Shown here: in pieces, positions 54,575 to 59,546 of the stretch
Numbering within the stretch: position 1 is the first letter of the stretch
How the letters are laid out: every line of letters begins with the position of its first letter
Program-made: the position numbers and the translations under genes
DNA from: Anaerolineaceae bacterium
GTDB lineage: Bacteria > Chloroflexota > Anaerolineae > Anaerolineales > UBA11657
Assembly (NCBI GenBank): GCA_003569365.1
Contig: BGOS01000016.1
Coordinates: 93,948-157,947, forward strand
Direction: 5' to 3'
Length of the DNA: 64,000 nt
The notes under the pieces: model-generated
Database searches by the model: none
Told to the model about the DNA's origin: nothing
The model's input: the letters and a program-made list of their open reading frames with translations, nothing else

Positions 54575-56995
54575 TCAGCCGCCCGCCAGTGCTTGGGAGT
54601 AAAACCGCAGGTAGTCCGGCACATGCTGCACCCAGTACACCGGCCCATGAAAGCCCGGATAGAGATGCCATTCGTGCGGAATTTTGCGGTCAGTGAGCGA
54701 ATTGTGGATCGCGGTCAATGTGCCCACCCACGGATCTTGTTCGCCAATGTCCAGCCAAATCTTCAGGGAGGCTGCACCTGGCGCTGTTTGGGCAAGCACC
54801 ACCGGATCTTTACTGGTGAACTCGGCGCCGGTCCCCAGGAAGTTCAGTTCTTCTGTGCCTTCATACAAGCTGGGGCTGCTGCTAGCAACCACGCCAAACA
54901 CATTGGGGTATGTGAAGCCCTGGTGCAGGGCACCCCAGCCGCCGATTGAAAGTCCGCCGACCGCACGCGCGGCCGGGGAACGCACGGTGCCAAAGTTCTG
55001 GTCAACTTCCCCCACTATTTCGTATGCGAGGTATTCACCCCAAGCCGGGTCATTGGCGGCCCAGTTGGTGAAGTAGCTGCGCTCGCCATGCGGCAGTACG
55101 ATGATGAACGGCATTAAGGCGCCGGCGGCCATGCCCCGGTCTGCCATGTCAAATAGACCATACGCAGCCCACTCGTCCTGCAGCCCGCCGCCACCATGCA
55201 GTGCATAGACCACGGGATAACGCCGGTCAGTATCCCCGTACCCGGGCGGCAGGTAGATCCAGTAGATCATGTCACGGTAAAGGAGCGGGCTGTACATGCT
55301 GCGGGCATAGGCGCGCCCCTTTAGGTTGCCTACATACTCGCTTACCAAGGTCTGGTCATCCGGCGGCAGCGGCGGAAATTCCAGCGGCGTCTGGGCTGTG
55401 GCAGGTGCAGCAGTAAGTTCTGGCTCAACTACAAGCGTCGGTTGCGCATCTGTTTGCGCGGCAGGTTTGGGGATTGGCGGAATTAGAGTGGCAGGCGGCG
55501 CTTGAGTTGCCACAATGGCGATTGAGATATCACTGCTGGCGGGGGTGGCCTGCGCCATCGCTGTGCCAGTTGCCGGCACAGCGATGGCGGCAATCACGGT
55601 GCCATAAGCTTTTGCCCGCGCAATAACTTTCGGATCAAGCTCCAAGGGCTGCGCAAGCACCGGTTGCACCCGCAGCAGTGGCAGAAATACAAGTGAGGCG
55701 AGCACCATCATGACCGGACTGGCGTACCAGAATGGGAGCGTTCTGTGTGTGGGCATTAGAAACCGGCTGCGCGCCAGCACCCAGATCAGCGCCACGGCAG
55801 CAATCTGGAAAGCAGCGTTGATGGCGGGCGGGCTAACATAGTCCACCCCTAGTGGCGTAAGCAGCAGCTGTGCGCCCACTGCCACTGCTGCGTGCAATGC
55901 AAAGGCGTACAGTGCATTCTGCCCGAGCGGCGCCAGCAAGCCGCGGGCGTGGCGCAGGTACTTCCACCAGCGGGTGAGGCATAGGAACATGAAAGTAAAG
56001 ACCACTGCCGAAGCAAGCAGGCGCCCCACTTGCAAGTCTGATTTCCCGAATACATTTATTTGCAGCCAGAACTCAGCTTCACTGATTGTGCCACTTAGGT
56101 CCCGGATCGGGGCGGGCAACCTGCTTGGCGGCAGGTACATTGCGGCGCACAACAGAAGCAGCGCCAGCGTACCCGCTCCGGTTATCCAATGCAGGCGCCG
56201 GGCACCACGGGTTGTTGGCGCTCCCATGCTGTTGCGCTTGTAGCCGAGTGCCAGCCCGCCAAAAAACAAAAGTTGCCAGGCGGAAAACTCAAACAGGTAG
56301 TTGCCGGCGATGGGCCACATGACCGTTACCGCATCCGGCACAATCTGGTGCAGCGCCCAGATTGCCACAGACACACCGAGCAGCCATGCGGTCCAGCCTC
56401 GTTCCAGCATAAACAGCGCAACCGGCGTAATCATGAAGAACACTGTGTAAAGCAGCATTACATCGGCCAGGTAGTAAGTGCGATGCAAGGTCAGCACGTT
56501 CAACAAGTAAGTTACCGGGTCTGAAAGGTCCAGCCCTTGCGCCCAGCGCAGCCCGAAGACTTCAGACACCGGTACTATCAGCAGGGTCATGGCCACAGTG
56601 AGCAGGTACAGCGCAATCATGCGCAGCATGATTTTTTGAACGGCTGCAACCAAGCCGGCTTGCTGTACCACCCGGTGATAAACCAGGCCGGCCATCAGGC
56701 CGGAGGTGAGAATAAAGCCTTCCGCTGCGGAGGTAAAAAACCGGTTGCCACCGGTGATCAGCCACAGCGGTGAGACACCGAGCACATGGTCGATGATCAT
56801 CGCCAGCGCAAAATACCCGCGCAAAAGGTCGATGCGCAGGTCGCGGCCGGCAGCTGTGATGTATGGCGGCAGAACTACTGCGGGTTTTGCATCAGTGCCA
56901 GCCGGCAGCGGTGATGGCACGCTCCCGATCCACGGCAGCAGAAATTTATCTGGCGTGTCGGCAGATTGGAGCGTTGGCAGTGTGGCTGCTGGCAT
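54575..56995 (-). CDS. OpgC-like membrane acyltransferase fused to a C-terminal esterase
   Basis: 806 residues. Residues about 45-440 are a polytopic OpgC/acyltransferase-3-like domain with roughly ten helices; it opens RDLRIDLLRGYFALAMIIDHV, whose His is the likely catalytic base. An Ala/Pro/Thr-rich linker (about 470-550) leads to an esterase-D/mycolyltransferase-like alpha/beta hydrolase at about 560-800. That domain has VVYALHGGGG, the nucleophile elbow GLSIGGWGAL, an acid in DIGEQDPW and the His in GFHGPVYW. Both activities on one chain suggest acyl transfer to, and removal from, an external glycan. This is inference from domain content. Confidence 0.82.
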   Translation of the reverse strand: MPAATLPTLQSADTPDKFLLPWIGSVPSPLPAGTDAKPAVVLPPYITAAGRDLRIDLLRGYFALAMIIDHVLGVSPLWLITGGNRFFTSAAEGFILTSGLMAGLVYHRVVQQAGLVAAVQKIMLRMIALYLLTVAMTLLIVPVSEVFGLRWAQGLDLSDPVTYLLNVLTLHRTYYLADVMLLYTVFFMITPVALFMLERGWTAWLLGVSVAIWALHQIVPDAVTVMWPIAGNYLFEFSAWQLLFFGGLALGYKRNSMGAPTTRGARRLHWITGAGTLALLLLCAAMYLPPSRLPAPIRDLSGTISEAEFWLQINVFGKSDLQVGRLLASAVVFTFMFLCLTRWWKYLRHARGLLAPLGQNALYAFALHAAVAVGAQLLLTPLGVDYVSPPAINAAFQIAAVALIWVLARSRFLMPTHRTLPFWYASPVMMVLASLVFLPLLRVQPVLAQPLELDPKVIARAKAYGTVIAAIAVPATGTAMAQATPASSDISIAIVATQAPPATLIPPIPKPAAQTDAQPTLVVEPELTAAPATAQTPLEFPPLPPDDQTLVSEYVGNLKGRAYARSMYSPLLYRDMIYWIYLPPGYGDTDRRYPVVYALHGGGGLQDEWAAYGLFDMADRGMAAGALMPFIIVLPHGERSYFTNWAANDPAWGEYLAYEIVGEVDQNFGTVRSPAARAVGGLSIGGWGALHQGFTYPNVFGVVASSSPSLYEGTEELNFLGTGAEFTSKDPVVLAQTAPGAASLKIWLDIGEQDPWVGTLTAIHNSLTDRKIPHEWHLYPGFHGPVYWVQHVPDYLRFYSQALAGG

Positions 56996-57146: not shown

Positions 57147-58631
57147 CTAATTTAGGGAGTTGTAAAACTCCAGAATTGCTTTGGTTGTCCGGTCGCCTGC
57201 ACTGCCCAGCAGATCGGAAAGTGTGGAGTGGGTGCGGTCTGGAATGTCGAGCAGGTCTGCGTGGACGCCGGCTGACTTCAAACTGCTGGCGAGGCTTACT
57301 GCTTGCTGTTTGCGGAACGCATTCAGGTGCGCATGCACAAGCAGGAAGGGCGCAATGTTTTTGGCGGGTGCCACATGATTTACCGCGGATGCATCGTCCC
57401 AAACCGGAGAATATTTGGGGCCAAATGCCAGTGCGTAGACATTATTGCGGTCGGTGTAGTGCCGCATGATCAGGGGGATGTCGTAGGCACCGCCATCCAG
57501 CGCCACAACGCCTTTGATGATCGAAAGGGGCTGAGATTCGGCAGCCAGATAGCGTTCATCTGTTGCAACAAGCGCCGCCAATTGGGCACCAGCCGAATGG
57601 CCCAGCAGGAACAAGCGCTTTGAATTACCGCCATAGCGCTCAATATGCTTTTGGATCCAACTGATGGCTTTTGCCAAATCCTTAACATTGTTTGGGTGTG
57701 CCCCCGCGGGCAGCAGCTGATAGTTGACACTTGCAAACACATAGCCGGCGGCCGTAAAAGCCTGGCCTTTTAGGCCCACCTCTGACTTGTCACCACCAGA
57801 CCAGCCGCCCCCATGTACATAAATGATCACCCCATGTTTCTGAGAGCTTGCTGGCACGTAGAGGTCAAGGCTTTGCCGCGGGTTGGCGGCTGCCACTTGA
57901 TCGTACGGCAGGTTGGGATAGATGCGCATGCCGCCGGTCGCGACGCTTGGCGCCTGTGCCAGTGCGCTTGGCACAGAAGCAGCTGCCGCTGCTGGCGCGG
58001 CTGCAGCACTGCCTATCCGCGGAACTTTTGCAAGATCGCCGGTTACCGTACCCACGCTTGTGGCGATCCATGTAGTGGTGCCAAATTTGGGAACATCCAC
58101 GCGCAGCCAGAAGCCGTCGTTGGTGACCCCGAGCACGGTTAATTTGTCACCCCTGAAAACTGCGCCCAGTACTGTGCCATAGGTGGCTGGTTTAGCGCGC
58201 ACATAGGCACTTGCTGCCGTCACAGACACCACCACCGGGGCGCTGGCGGCATGGCGGGCGGCAGGCTGCTGGCTTGAGTTTTCCACTCGACTGGTAGCGC
58301 GCATAAAAGTTGGGAGCACGCCAGAACCGGCTGCCGGTGCCAAGCGGGCAGCAATGGTGCGCATGGCTGACGGCGGGCTTGCCAAGCCAGCTATCCGGGC
58401 GAAAGATCTGCTGCCGGAGTTCAAGCCTGCCATCGGCAAGGCTGGAGCTGGTTTATGTGCCGAGCCTGTGGAATGTGAAGGACGGGTAGTTGCCGCAGTG
58501 CTTAAGCGCTGCGCATCCGGCATGCACATGCCCGCACACAAGAGAATACAACCAGGCAAAAGAATCTTGTTGAGCCCGATAAATCGGAACTTGCCCAGAG
58601 CTGGGGCTGATTTTCTAGCAATAATTTCCAT
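57147..58631 (-). CDS. Secreted SH3-domain carboxylesterase (BD-FAE/alpha-beta hydrolase)
   Basis: 494 residues. The hydrophobic N-terminus (ILLPGCILLCAGMC) is a signal or lipoprotein-like segment. A low-complexity stretch follows, then a bacterial SH3 domain at about 135-200 (SAYVRAKPATYGTVLGAVFRGDKL). From about 245 comes a hydrolase with the oxyanion motif YVHGGGWSGGD, the nucleophile GHSAGAQLAAL and the C-terminal His in DRTHSTL. Bacterial SH3 domains bind cell-wall peptides, so the enzyme probably acts at the cell surface. It lies next to another surface esterase. Confidence 0.87.
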   Translation of the reverse strand: MEIIARKSAPALGKFRFIGLNKILLPGCILLCAGMCMPDAQRLSTAATTRPSHSTGSAHKPAPALPMAGLNSGSRSFARIAGLASPPSAMRTIAARLAPAAGSGVLPTFMRATSRVENSSQQPAARHAASAPVVVSVTAASAYVRAKPATYGTVLGAVFRGDKLTVLGVTNDGFWLRVDVPKFGTTTWIATSVGTVTGDLAKVPRIGSAAAAPAAAAASVPSALAQAPSVATGGMRIYPNLPYDQVAAANPRQSLDLYVPASSQKHGVIIYVHGGGWSGGDKSEVGLKGQAFTAAGYVFASVNYQLLPAGAHPNNVKDLAKAISWIQKHIERYGGNSKRLFLLGHSAGAQLAALVATDERYLAAESQPLSIIKGVVALDGGAYDIPLIMRHYTDRNNVYALAFGPKYSPVWDDASAVNHVAPAKNIAPFLLVHAHLNAFRKQQAVSLASSLKSAGVHADLLDIPDRTHSTLSDLLGSAGDRTTKAILEFYNSLN

Positions 58632-58861: not shown

Positions 58862-58870
58862 TGGTACTAT
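58862..58870 (+). promoter_or_regulatory. Extended -10 promoter of the Cys leader transcript
   Basis: TGGTACTAT carries TGn followed by TACTAT. Seven bases separate it from ATG 58878, predicting a transcript that starts at the leader-peptide ATG. It is nearly the same sequence as the recO promoter (TGGTATAAT). Confidence 0.6.
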
Positions 58871-58877
58871 CCTGCCT

Positions 58878-58943
58878 ATGTTCGGGAAGAATAGATTGGC
58901 GCTTGAGGCTTGCTTCTGTAGCACCTGCATTGGGGCGCCATAG
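58878..58943 (+). CDS. Cys-rich leader peptide upstream of the DUF4395 gene
   Basis: A 21-residue frame ending EACFCSTCIGAP, with three Cys codons among six residues. The ORF track absorbs it into a 66-codon frame from 58743, but the promoter places the real start at ATG 58878. It is followed after 36 bases by an intrinsic terminator and then a DUF4395 gene. Poly-Cys leader peptides that govern sulfur-related genes, DUF4395 among them, are known from mycobacteria. By analogy this senses charged tRNA-Cys. Function is inferred. Confidence 0.75.
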   Translation: MFGKNRLALEACFCSTCIGAP

Positions 58944-59013
58944 TCTTTCGCTGTTTGTTTCGCGACGCGCTATGTAACACCCCCATGGAAACCAACCATG
59001 GGGGTTTTTTATT
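58897..59013 (+). terminator. Cys attenuator: leader hairpin, antiterminator segment and intrinsic terminator
   Basis: CCCCCATGG (58980-58988) pairs perfectly with CCATGGGGG (58996-59004), followed by TTTTTTATTT, a strong terminator. Upstream, TGGCGC (58897-58902) is complementary to GCGCCA (58935-58940), a hairpin enclosing all three Cys codons. TGGGG (58931-58935) can pair with CCCCA (58981-58985) inside the terminator arm, a short candidate antiterminator. The terminator is certain; the switching scheme is inference. Confidence 0.7.
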
Positions 59014-59033
59014 TCTGGAAGGAGCTTATTGCA

Positions 59034-59546
59034 ATGACCGTTCAACAACCATCCTGGACCGCAAAGGTCTTTAGTTTTCCCAACCCCGTGAATGATTACG
59101 CAGCGCGGCTGGTAGCCGGCATGGTGGTTTTGATGGGGCTGTGGGTATTGGTTGACGATGCGGCGTGGCTGCTGCCGTTGCTGGCGGCTGGTTTTCTGGC
59201 GCGGGTGCTGGCCGGCCCGCGGCTGAGTGCTGCCGGCTGGCTGGCTACCCGCGTCCTAATTCCGGCGCTGGGCAATCCCTTTCGGCCGGTGGCGGGGCCG
59301 CCCAAGCGCTTTGCGCAATTTGTTGGTTTGTTGTTTTCCGGTGGCGCGCTGTGGCTGCACTGGGGCTTGCAGCTGGCCGGCGCTGCCAAGATCTTGATTG
59401 CAGTGCTGGTGCTGTTTGCCAGCTTGGAGACGGCATTGGGCTTCTGTGCCGGCTGCTTTGTGTTTGGCTTCTTCATTCGTTGGGGGCTGGTGCCGGCCGC
59501 CGTATGCGCGGAGTGTGAAAACTTTTCCAGCCGCGCACTGACATAA
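59034..59546 (+). CDS. DUF4395 family membrane protein
   Basis: 170 residues from ATG 59034, with AAGGAG upstream; the track start 58998 lies in the terminator. Four or so hydrophobic segments, the conserved opening FPNPVNDYAARLVAG, a GPPKRFAQ loop, and two Cys pairs near the C-terminus (FCAGC and VCAEC). Family function is unproven; DUF4395 genes are often found with thiosulfate/sulfur-transfer genes. The Cys leader in front supports a sulfur-linked role here. It is alone behind the attenuator. Confidence 0.88.
   Translation: MTVQQPSWTAKVFSFPNPVNDYAARLVAGMVVLMGLWVLVDDAAWLLPLLAAGFLARVLAGPRLSAAGWLATRVLIPALGNPFRPVAGPPKRFAQFVGLLFSGGALWLHWGLQLAGAAKILIAVLVLFASLETALGFCAGCFVFGFFIRWGLVPAAVCAECENFSSRALT

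Follow-up and report, generated by a model that had tools for sequence, protein, structure and literature searches.

What controls the gene for a DUF4395 membrane protein in a freshwater member of the Anaerolineales, and does a short, cysteine-rich reading frame in front of it act as a sensor? The question is raised by a locus at 58862-59033 of the window, by which we mean the whole 64,000-nt stretch of DNA that was analysed: positions 93,948-157,947 of contig BGOS01000016.1 from an Anaerolineaceae bacterium (GCA_003569365.1). An earlier note had described there an extended -10 element seven nucleotides before the ATG of a 21-codon frame with Cys-x-Cys-x-x-Cys, in a host that did not look actinobacterial; promoter and frame are read directly in the sequence, and the lineage is indeed Chloroflexota. 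We suggest, at a probability of about 0.83, that the DUF4395 leader is a cysteine-responsive, ribosome-mediated transcription attenuator that senses charged tRNA-Cys.

Table 1. Parts of the leader locus and the gene behind it (positions in the window).
Feature	Position	Strand	Remarks
Extended -10 promoter element, TG-G-TACTAT	58862-58870	+	TG 58862-58863, TACTAT 58865-58870; from sequence
Leader-peptide ORF, predicted leaderless, MFGKNRLALEACFCSTCIGAP then stop	58878-58943	+	21 sense codons and TAG; ATG 7 nt past the -10; from sequence
Putative control codons TGC-TTC-TGT (Cys12, Phe13, Cys14)	58911-58919	+	C-x-C whose second Cys is encoded by UGU; a stall here would expose the antiterminator (fold prediction)
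Third Cys codon, TGC (Cys17)	58926-58928	+	Within the antiterminator arm
Region 1, protector arm pairing with region 2 when the leader carries no ribosome	58896-58910	+	Predicted duplex, -17.6 kcal/mol
Region 2, antiterminator 5' arm, GCATTGGGGCGCCATAGTC	58927-58945	+	Codons 17-21 and stop; pairs with region 3
Region 3, antiterminator 3' arm, GCTATGTAACACCCCCATGG	58969-58988	+	Overlaps the terminator 5' arm; excludes the terminator
Intrinsic terminator, 7-nt loop, U tract	58979-59010	+	10-bp stem, 58979-58988 / 58996-59005
Shine-Dalgarno of DUF4395, AAGGAG	59019-59024	+	From sequence
DUF4395 membrane protein gene, putative regulated gene	59034-59546	+	PF14340, E 1.9e-29

Transcription is predicted to start at the A of the leader ATG (58878). 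The cysteines of the leader are codons 12, 14 and 17, the last of them five codons 5' of the stop. The terminator hairpin, ACCCCCATGG-AAACCAA-CCATGGGGGT with TTTTTTATTT (58979-59014), stands before the DUF4395 ribosome site as the earlier note had it, although the stem that it gave as a perfect 9 bp is in fact 10 bp long, with an outer A-U pair added to the nine. Because the adjacent upstream gene (57147-58631) lies on the opposite strand, a plus-strand terminator at this place can end the leader transcript only, and not that of an upstream gene. Elsewhere in the window, the minus strand encodes an OpgC-type acyltransferase domain fused to a putative esterase domain (54575-56995), and positions 1-835 (also minus) overlap a gene for a Cys/Met-metabolism PLP enzyme (PF01053; G000:C16:93679-94782, G000 being the source draft genome). 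Of 2000 dinucleotide-shuffled versions of the region, 14% had a small ORF with C-x-C and at least three Cys, 1.7% such an ORF plus a -10, and 0.35% a perfect 9-bp terminator; none of the 2000 had ORF, -10 and terminator together and in order. Two further species of the genus, G001 and G002 (records CANNEJ010000073 and QWRL01000121; freshwater Chloroflexota/Anaerolineales), both keep leader and terminator.

A part absent from the earlier note is the antiterminator, a predicted duplex of regions 2 and 3 with -16.5 kcal/mol. Against shuffles this pairing is modest in the window (p 0.024-0.029), with p 0.011 in G001 and 0.005 in G002. The hairpin enclosing the Cys codons, which had been noticed before, is also predicted; it is the protector formed by region 1 (codons 7-11) with region 2, with p 0.004 in the window and 0.003 in G001, and it is absent in G002. 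In folding predictions in which the footprint and timing of the ribosome are assumptions, a ribosome at codon 12 or 14 leads to the antiterminator in RNA cut before the terminator 3' arm, and a ribosome at codon 17 or at the stop leaves the antiterminator unformed, in all three genus members. Since a stall at Cys17 would thus block the antiterminator, this third cysteine is probably not a control codon. In predictions for the full-length window RNA the terminator prevails even with a stalled ribosome, and a switch of this kind must therefore act during transcription. Over 21 loci the antiterminator pairing was stronger than in shuffles, with a mean z of -3.0 and a Stouffer z of -13.7, for loci which are not all independent and whose arms were chosen by hand, a source of bias. 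An arm-swap test had a mixed outcome, and base-pair covariation in a MAFFT alignment of cysM-type RNAs was not significant.

The locus thus combines an ORF with clustered codons, an intrinsic terminator and, by computation, a mutually exclusive antiterminator. From these parts, their conservation and their pairing potential, which are given by the sequence, we infer a start site, stalling, a cysteine signal and a direction of response as follows. Transcription would begin at the leader ATG, with a ribosome trailing the RNA polymerase. A shortage of charged tRNA-Cys would make the ribosome pause at Cys12/Cys14 and break the region 1:2 hairpin; region 2, thus freed, could pair with region 3, the 5' arm of the terminator, and the polymerase would read through into DUF4395. 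When Cys-tRNA is ample, the ribosome would either mask region 2 from the stop codon or depart and let the region 1:2 hairpin re-form; with region 2 unavailable the terminator would fold, and transcription would stop at ~59010.

Between the window and G001, its nearest genus mate, identity is 34% upstream and 90% in the DUF4395 coding sequence, and reaches 100% both over codons 8-21 with the stop and over the terminator; for G002 the latter two values are 84% and 94%. The G001 leader, MYGNHIMALEACFCSTCIGAP before its stop, follows TG-G-TATTAT plus 7 nt, the same promoter-to-ATG geometry as in the window. In the G002 leader, MYGNGIGGAEACLFRTCIGAP before its stop, Cys14 is replaced by Phe (a TTT codon) and the -10 is degenerate; this species retains Cys12, the downstream half of the leader, the antiterminator and the terminator, and has lost the region 1:2 pairing. 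One could instead think of translational attenuation, in which translation of the leader gates the DUF4395 ribosome site and the hairpin does not function in termination; Canestrari 2020 (doi 10.1111/mmi.14498), as cited in PMC13236596, has the leaderless Cys leaders of mycobacteria acting on translation. We consider this unlikely at the present locus, as the 10-bp stem and six U residues are conserved base for base in G001, the antiterminator overlaps the 5' arm of the terminator and not the Shine-Dalgarno, and terminators recur at the cysM-type and SAR202-type leaders described below.

A further Cys leader of the source genome, also predicted to be leaderless, is MSRGTGACTCIGAGRLSTLR with its stop, at L240:1248-1310 (G000:C6), ending in ..GACTCIGAGRLSTLR / ..ACTCIGAGRLSTLR before the stop. 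Its promoter consists of a -35 TTGACA and a -10 TACAAT, with 7 nt to the ATG, and a long terminator, AAAGAGTGG...CCACTCTTTTTTT, follows 5' of a gene for a PALP-family cysteine synthase (PF00291), itself followed by JAB (PF14464) and ThiS (PF02597) genes, a set which we take to be of the cysM-mec-cysO type. G001 and G002 have the equivalent cysM leader as MNTATGACTCIGAGRLSTLR plus stop, so that it is kept in three species. Here the antiterminator, at -31 to -32 kcal/mol, is predicted to form in the stalled state, and the terminator with a ribosome at the leader stop. This leader of like design in the same genome connects the design with cysteine synthesis by a route that does not involve DUF4395, and a gene that makes or uses cysteine, as expected for the target of such a sensor, lies downstream of it and of its relatives. 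The earlier idea of a cysteine-sensing attenuator is supported, at the level of an inferred cysteine response, while the mycobacteria-like logic proposed for it fits less well than transcription termination and antitermination.

Similar C-x-C leaders occur across the class in front of cysM/cysK, DUF4395, trans-sulfuration and rhodanese-SufE genes, examples being NYCLCLSRGS, MLTCLCLRRGS, MEFCLMCTCMCLRRGL, MKHTIMLVCMCMERGR, MMTYATLLSCFTCSCMVRA and MNNMVLEPVFCMCFCLIGAPPSG, each directly before a stop. In the 450 nt upstream of the gene, a C-x-C small ORF is present for 13/15 CysK/M genes vs 93/505 other genes (Fisher p 4e-8); for DUF4395 the count is 14/46 (p 0.04), many of these genes being within operons or without a leader. 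In other families of the class DUF4395 is often found inside a cysM-JAMM-ThiS operon, with the leader ahead of the first gene. Since an apparent Shine-Dalgarno is seen at many cysM-type leaders, a leaderless start is not general. A search upstream of DUF4395 genes across the phylum, as the earlier note had proposed, yields Cys leaders with terminators in the genus, in other families of the class and in some SAR202-type loci, while many DUF4395 genes of other Chloroflexota classes have no leader. The SAR202-type leaders, with a -10 and a terminator, precede DUF4395 at L146, L165, L168 and L193 and surfaced only among named close DUF4395 relatives; a strict scan of 5-kb loci from other classes gave no clear leader. 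In Actinomycetota, possible Cys leaders (MAVACTCCSHSARRTVRRTV.. and MACTCACHSARGTVSRTV..) are seen upstream of DUF4395 at L169 and L181. At L057:53-230, on the strand opposite a Cys leader (-), there are two tandem c-di-GMP-I riboswitches.

A covariance model built from ten cysM-type leaders and searched on 298 genomes of the class gave 24 matches in 22 of them, three being training loci and 21 lying outside the training set. All 24 are directly upstream of sulfur genes, some of which were assigned by sequence motif only: cysM/cysK (some with cysE), DUF4395 (two), Cys/Met-metabolism PLP enzymes (two) and rhodanese-SufE (two). The model was built without regard to the downstream gene but included the Cys codons, and C-x-C in the matches is therefore not independent. 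The window's own leader was not matched by this cysM-type model, and Rfam 15 has no family at gathering score for the leader RNAs, the best sub-threshold matches having E 0.13 and 0.34. A side observation is that the leader type at L232 and L233 precedes a rhodanese-SufE pair, which suggests a wider sulfur-transfer regulon.

The choice of Cys codons is biased. In 43/43 leaders scored (26 from distinct genomes), including 58917-58919 of the window, UGU encodes the second Cys of C-x-C, and the first is UGC in 38/43, while the middle codon is free, with 15 different codons across the 43. In local genes UGU makes up 23-33% of Cys codons and TGC is preferred; under this usage 26/26 UGU has a probability of ~4e-13, a figure that ignores shared ancestry and includes cysM-type matches partly conditioned by the covariance model. 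A single tRNA-Cys with anticodon GCA would read UGU by wobble, and UGU would then be the slower, more charging-sensitive codon, a possible reason for its constancy. No tRNA-Cys was among the 30 tRNA loci scanned in the draft genome, the other 10 matches, of long-arm tRNA length, lying outside that scan; as tRNA-Phe and tRNA-Ile are also missing from these 30, an assembly gap in the draft is likely.

These codons also bear on two further explanations. The nascent peptide might itself be a metal or redox sensor, its Cys cluster (CFCSTC) binding copper or another metal, or becoming oxidised, and so setting ribosome arrest in the manner of CruR (PMC9426467). Such a cluster close to the C-terminus, containing both C-x-C and C-x-x-C and accompanied by IGAP in the window and IGAPP at L050, which are faintly like an arrest motif, does recall that precedent. 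A synonymous bias towards UGU, however, acts on decoding or on the RNA and not on the peptide; most leaders have C-x-C only and no C-x-x-C, the genes downstream are cysteine and sulfur genes rather than metal genes, and the locus carries a terminator of the intrinsic type plus a predicted antiterminator in place of Rho dependence, with a leader of 21 residues and no DUF2946 protein. We therefore regard a peptide sensor as quite improbable. Even less credible to us is an RNA-only riboswitch or a plain constitutive terminator, with an incidental Cys frame: while the RNA arms are strongly conserved at the nucleotide level, and RNA pairing accounts for the RG codons of cysM-type leaders, C-x-C with its free middle codon persists across 43 leaders whose RNA sequences differ widely, the frame and a stop close by are maintained, and there is no Rfam match. 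Ribosome-mediated attenuation by charged tRNA-Cys is thus the reading that we prefer.

How does such an attenuator compare with known systems? In the classical trp, his and leu attenuators, a 1:2 protector, a 2:3 antiterminator and a 3:4 terminator are combined with two control codons. The window leader shares this logic and the two control codons, with cysteine as the putative signal, and differs from these attenuators in having no Shine-Dalgarno of its own, because of its predicted leaderless start. The uORFC-8-2 motif of Rhodobacterales cysS is a short ORF with tandem Cys codons and a terminator, for which Cys-tRNA attenuation was proposed (PMC8632094); it resembles the present leaders in its two-Cys-codon short ORF, the hairpin containing the Cys codons, the intrinsic terminator and the ribosome-mediated attenuation proposed. 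Its Cys codons are adjacent (positions 14-15), however, and it always precedes cysS, in alphaproteobacteria, whereas the Chloroflexota leaders have C-x-C, DUF4395 and cysteine-biosynthesis targets, and a predicted leaderless start in the source genus. Mycobacteria have leaderless polycysteine short uORFs before sulfur genes (PMC4633059), and the window leader resembles them in its short Cys-codon ORF, with a promoter geometry that would fit a leaderless transcript. Their Cys run is near the stop and, as described in PMC13236596, control is translational, whereas the window leader has spaced Cys codons and a terminator with a predicted antiterminator. Cys leader peptides were also predicted in Actinobacteria before cys or cbs genes, without terminators (PMC1262725); the window leader is like these in being a predicted Cys leader and differs by its terminator. 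CruR, a Rho-dependent copper uORF of copper operons, encodes a DUF2946 protein with CXXC and a C-terminal RAPP arrest motif; the likeness lies in a Cys motif in a regulatory upstream ORF, and the window leader has no RAPP and an intrinsic terminator. As an aside, the 'metL' leader before metNIQ of Streptomyces lividans, ..GARCMCRRMCAF plus stop, is more like a Cys leader (CMC..C) than like a Met leader (PMC8079986, Table 4).

Attenuation by Cys codons is thus already known or predicted elsewhere, and our literature search found no paper linking Chloroflexi with a cysteine attenuator and leader peptide; what is new to Rfam and to the literature searched is the phylum, the targets and the anatomy, that is, the C-x-C/UGU pattern and a predicted leaderless start joined to an intrinsic terminator. 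The earlier note had counted DUF4395 among the sulfur genes behind such leaders in mycobacteria; no paper joining DUF4395 with cysteine was found in our search, and the link is suggested here by neighbour genes and by the leader itself. A structure model of the protein has four long helices (mean pLDDT 78), and a fold search with it against the PDB gave nothing at E <= 0.001.

We speculate, at somewhat less than even odds, that cysteine attenuators govern a whole sulfur regulon at the level of the phylum Chloroflexota (cysM-JAMM-ThiS, cysK-cysE, trans-sulfuration, rhodanese-SufE and DUF4395) through a fixed UGY-N3-UGU pair, whose second codon, UGU, would be the slowest, wobble-read gauge of charged tRNA-Cys, and that DUF4395 is a membrane protein of cysteine or sulfur supply. 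The invariant UGU offers a sharp test of whether attenuators pick the most charging-sensitive codon when one tRNA reads both, and the leader, together with the covariance model, is a handle for finding more sulfur genes without an assigned function. If the proposed attenuation is true, an abundant and barely cultured phylum would regulate its cysteine synthesis through attenuation, and the uncharacterised DUF4395 family would find its place in a cysteine regulon.
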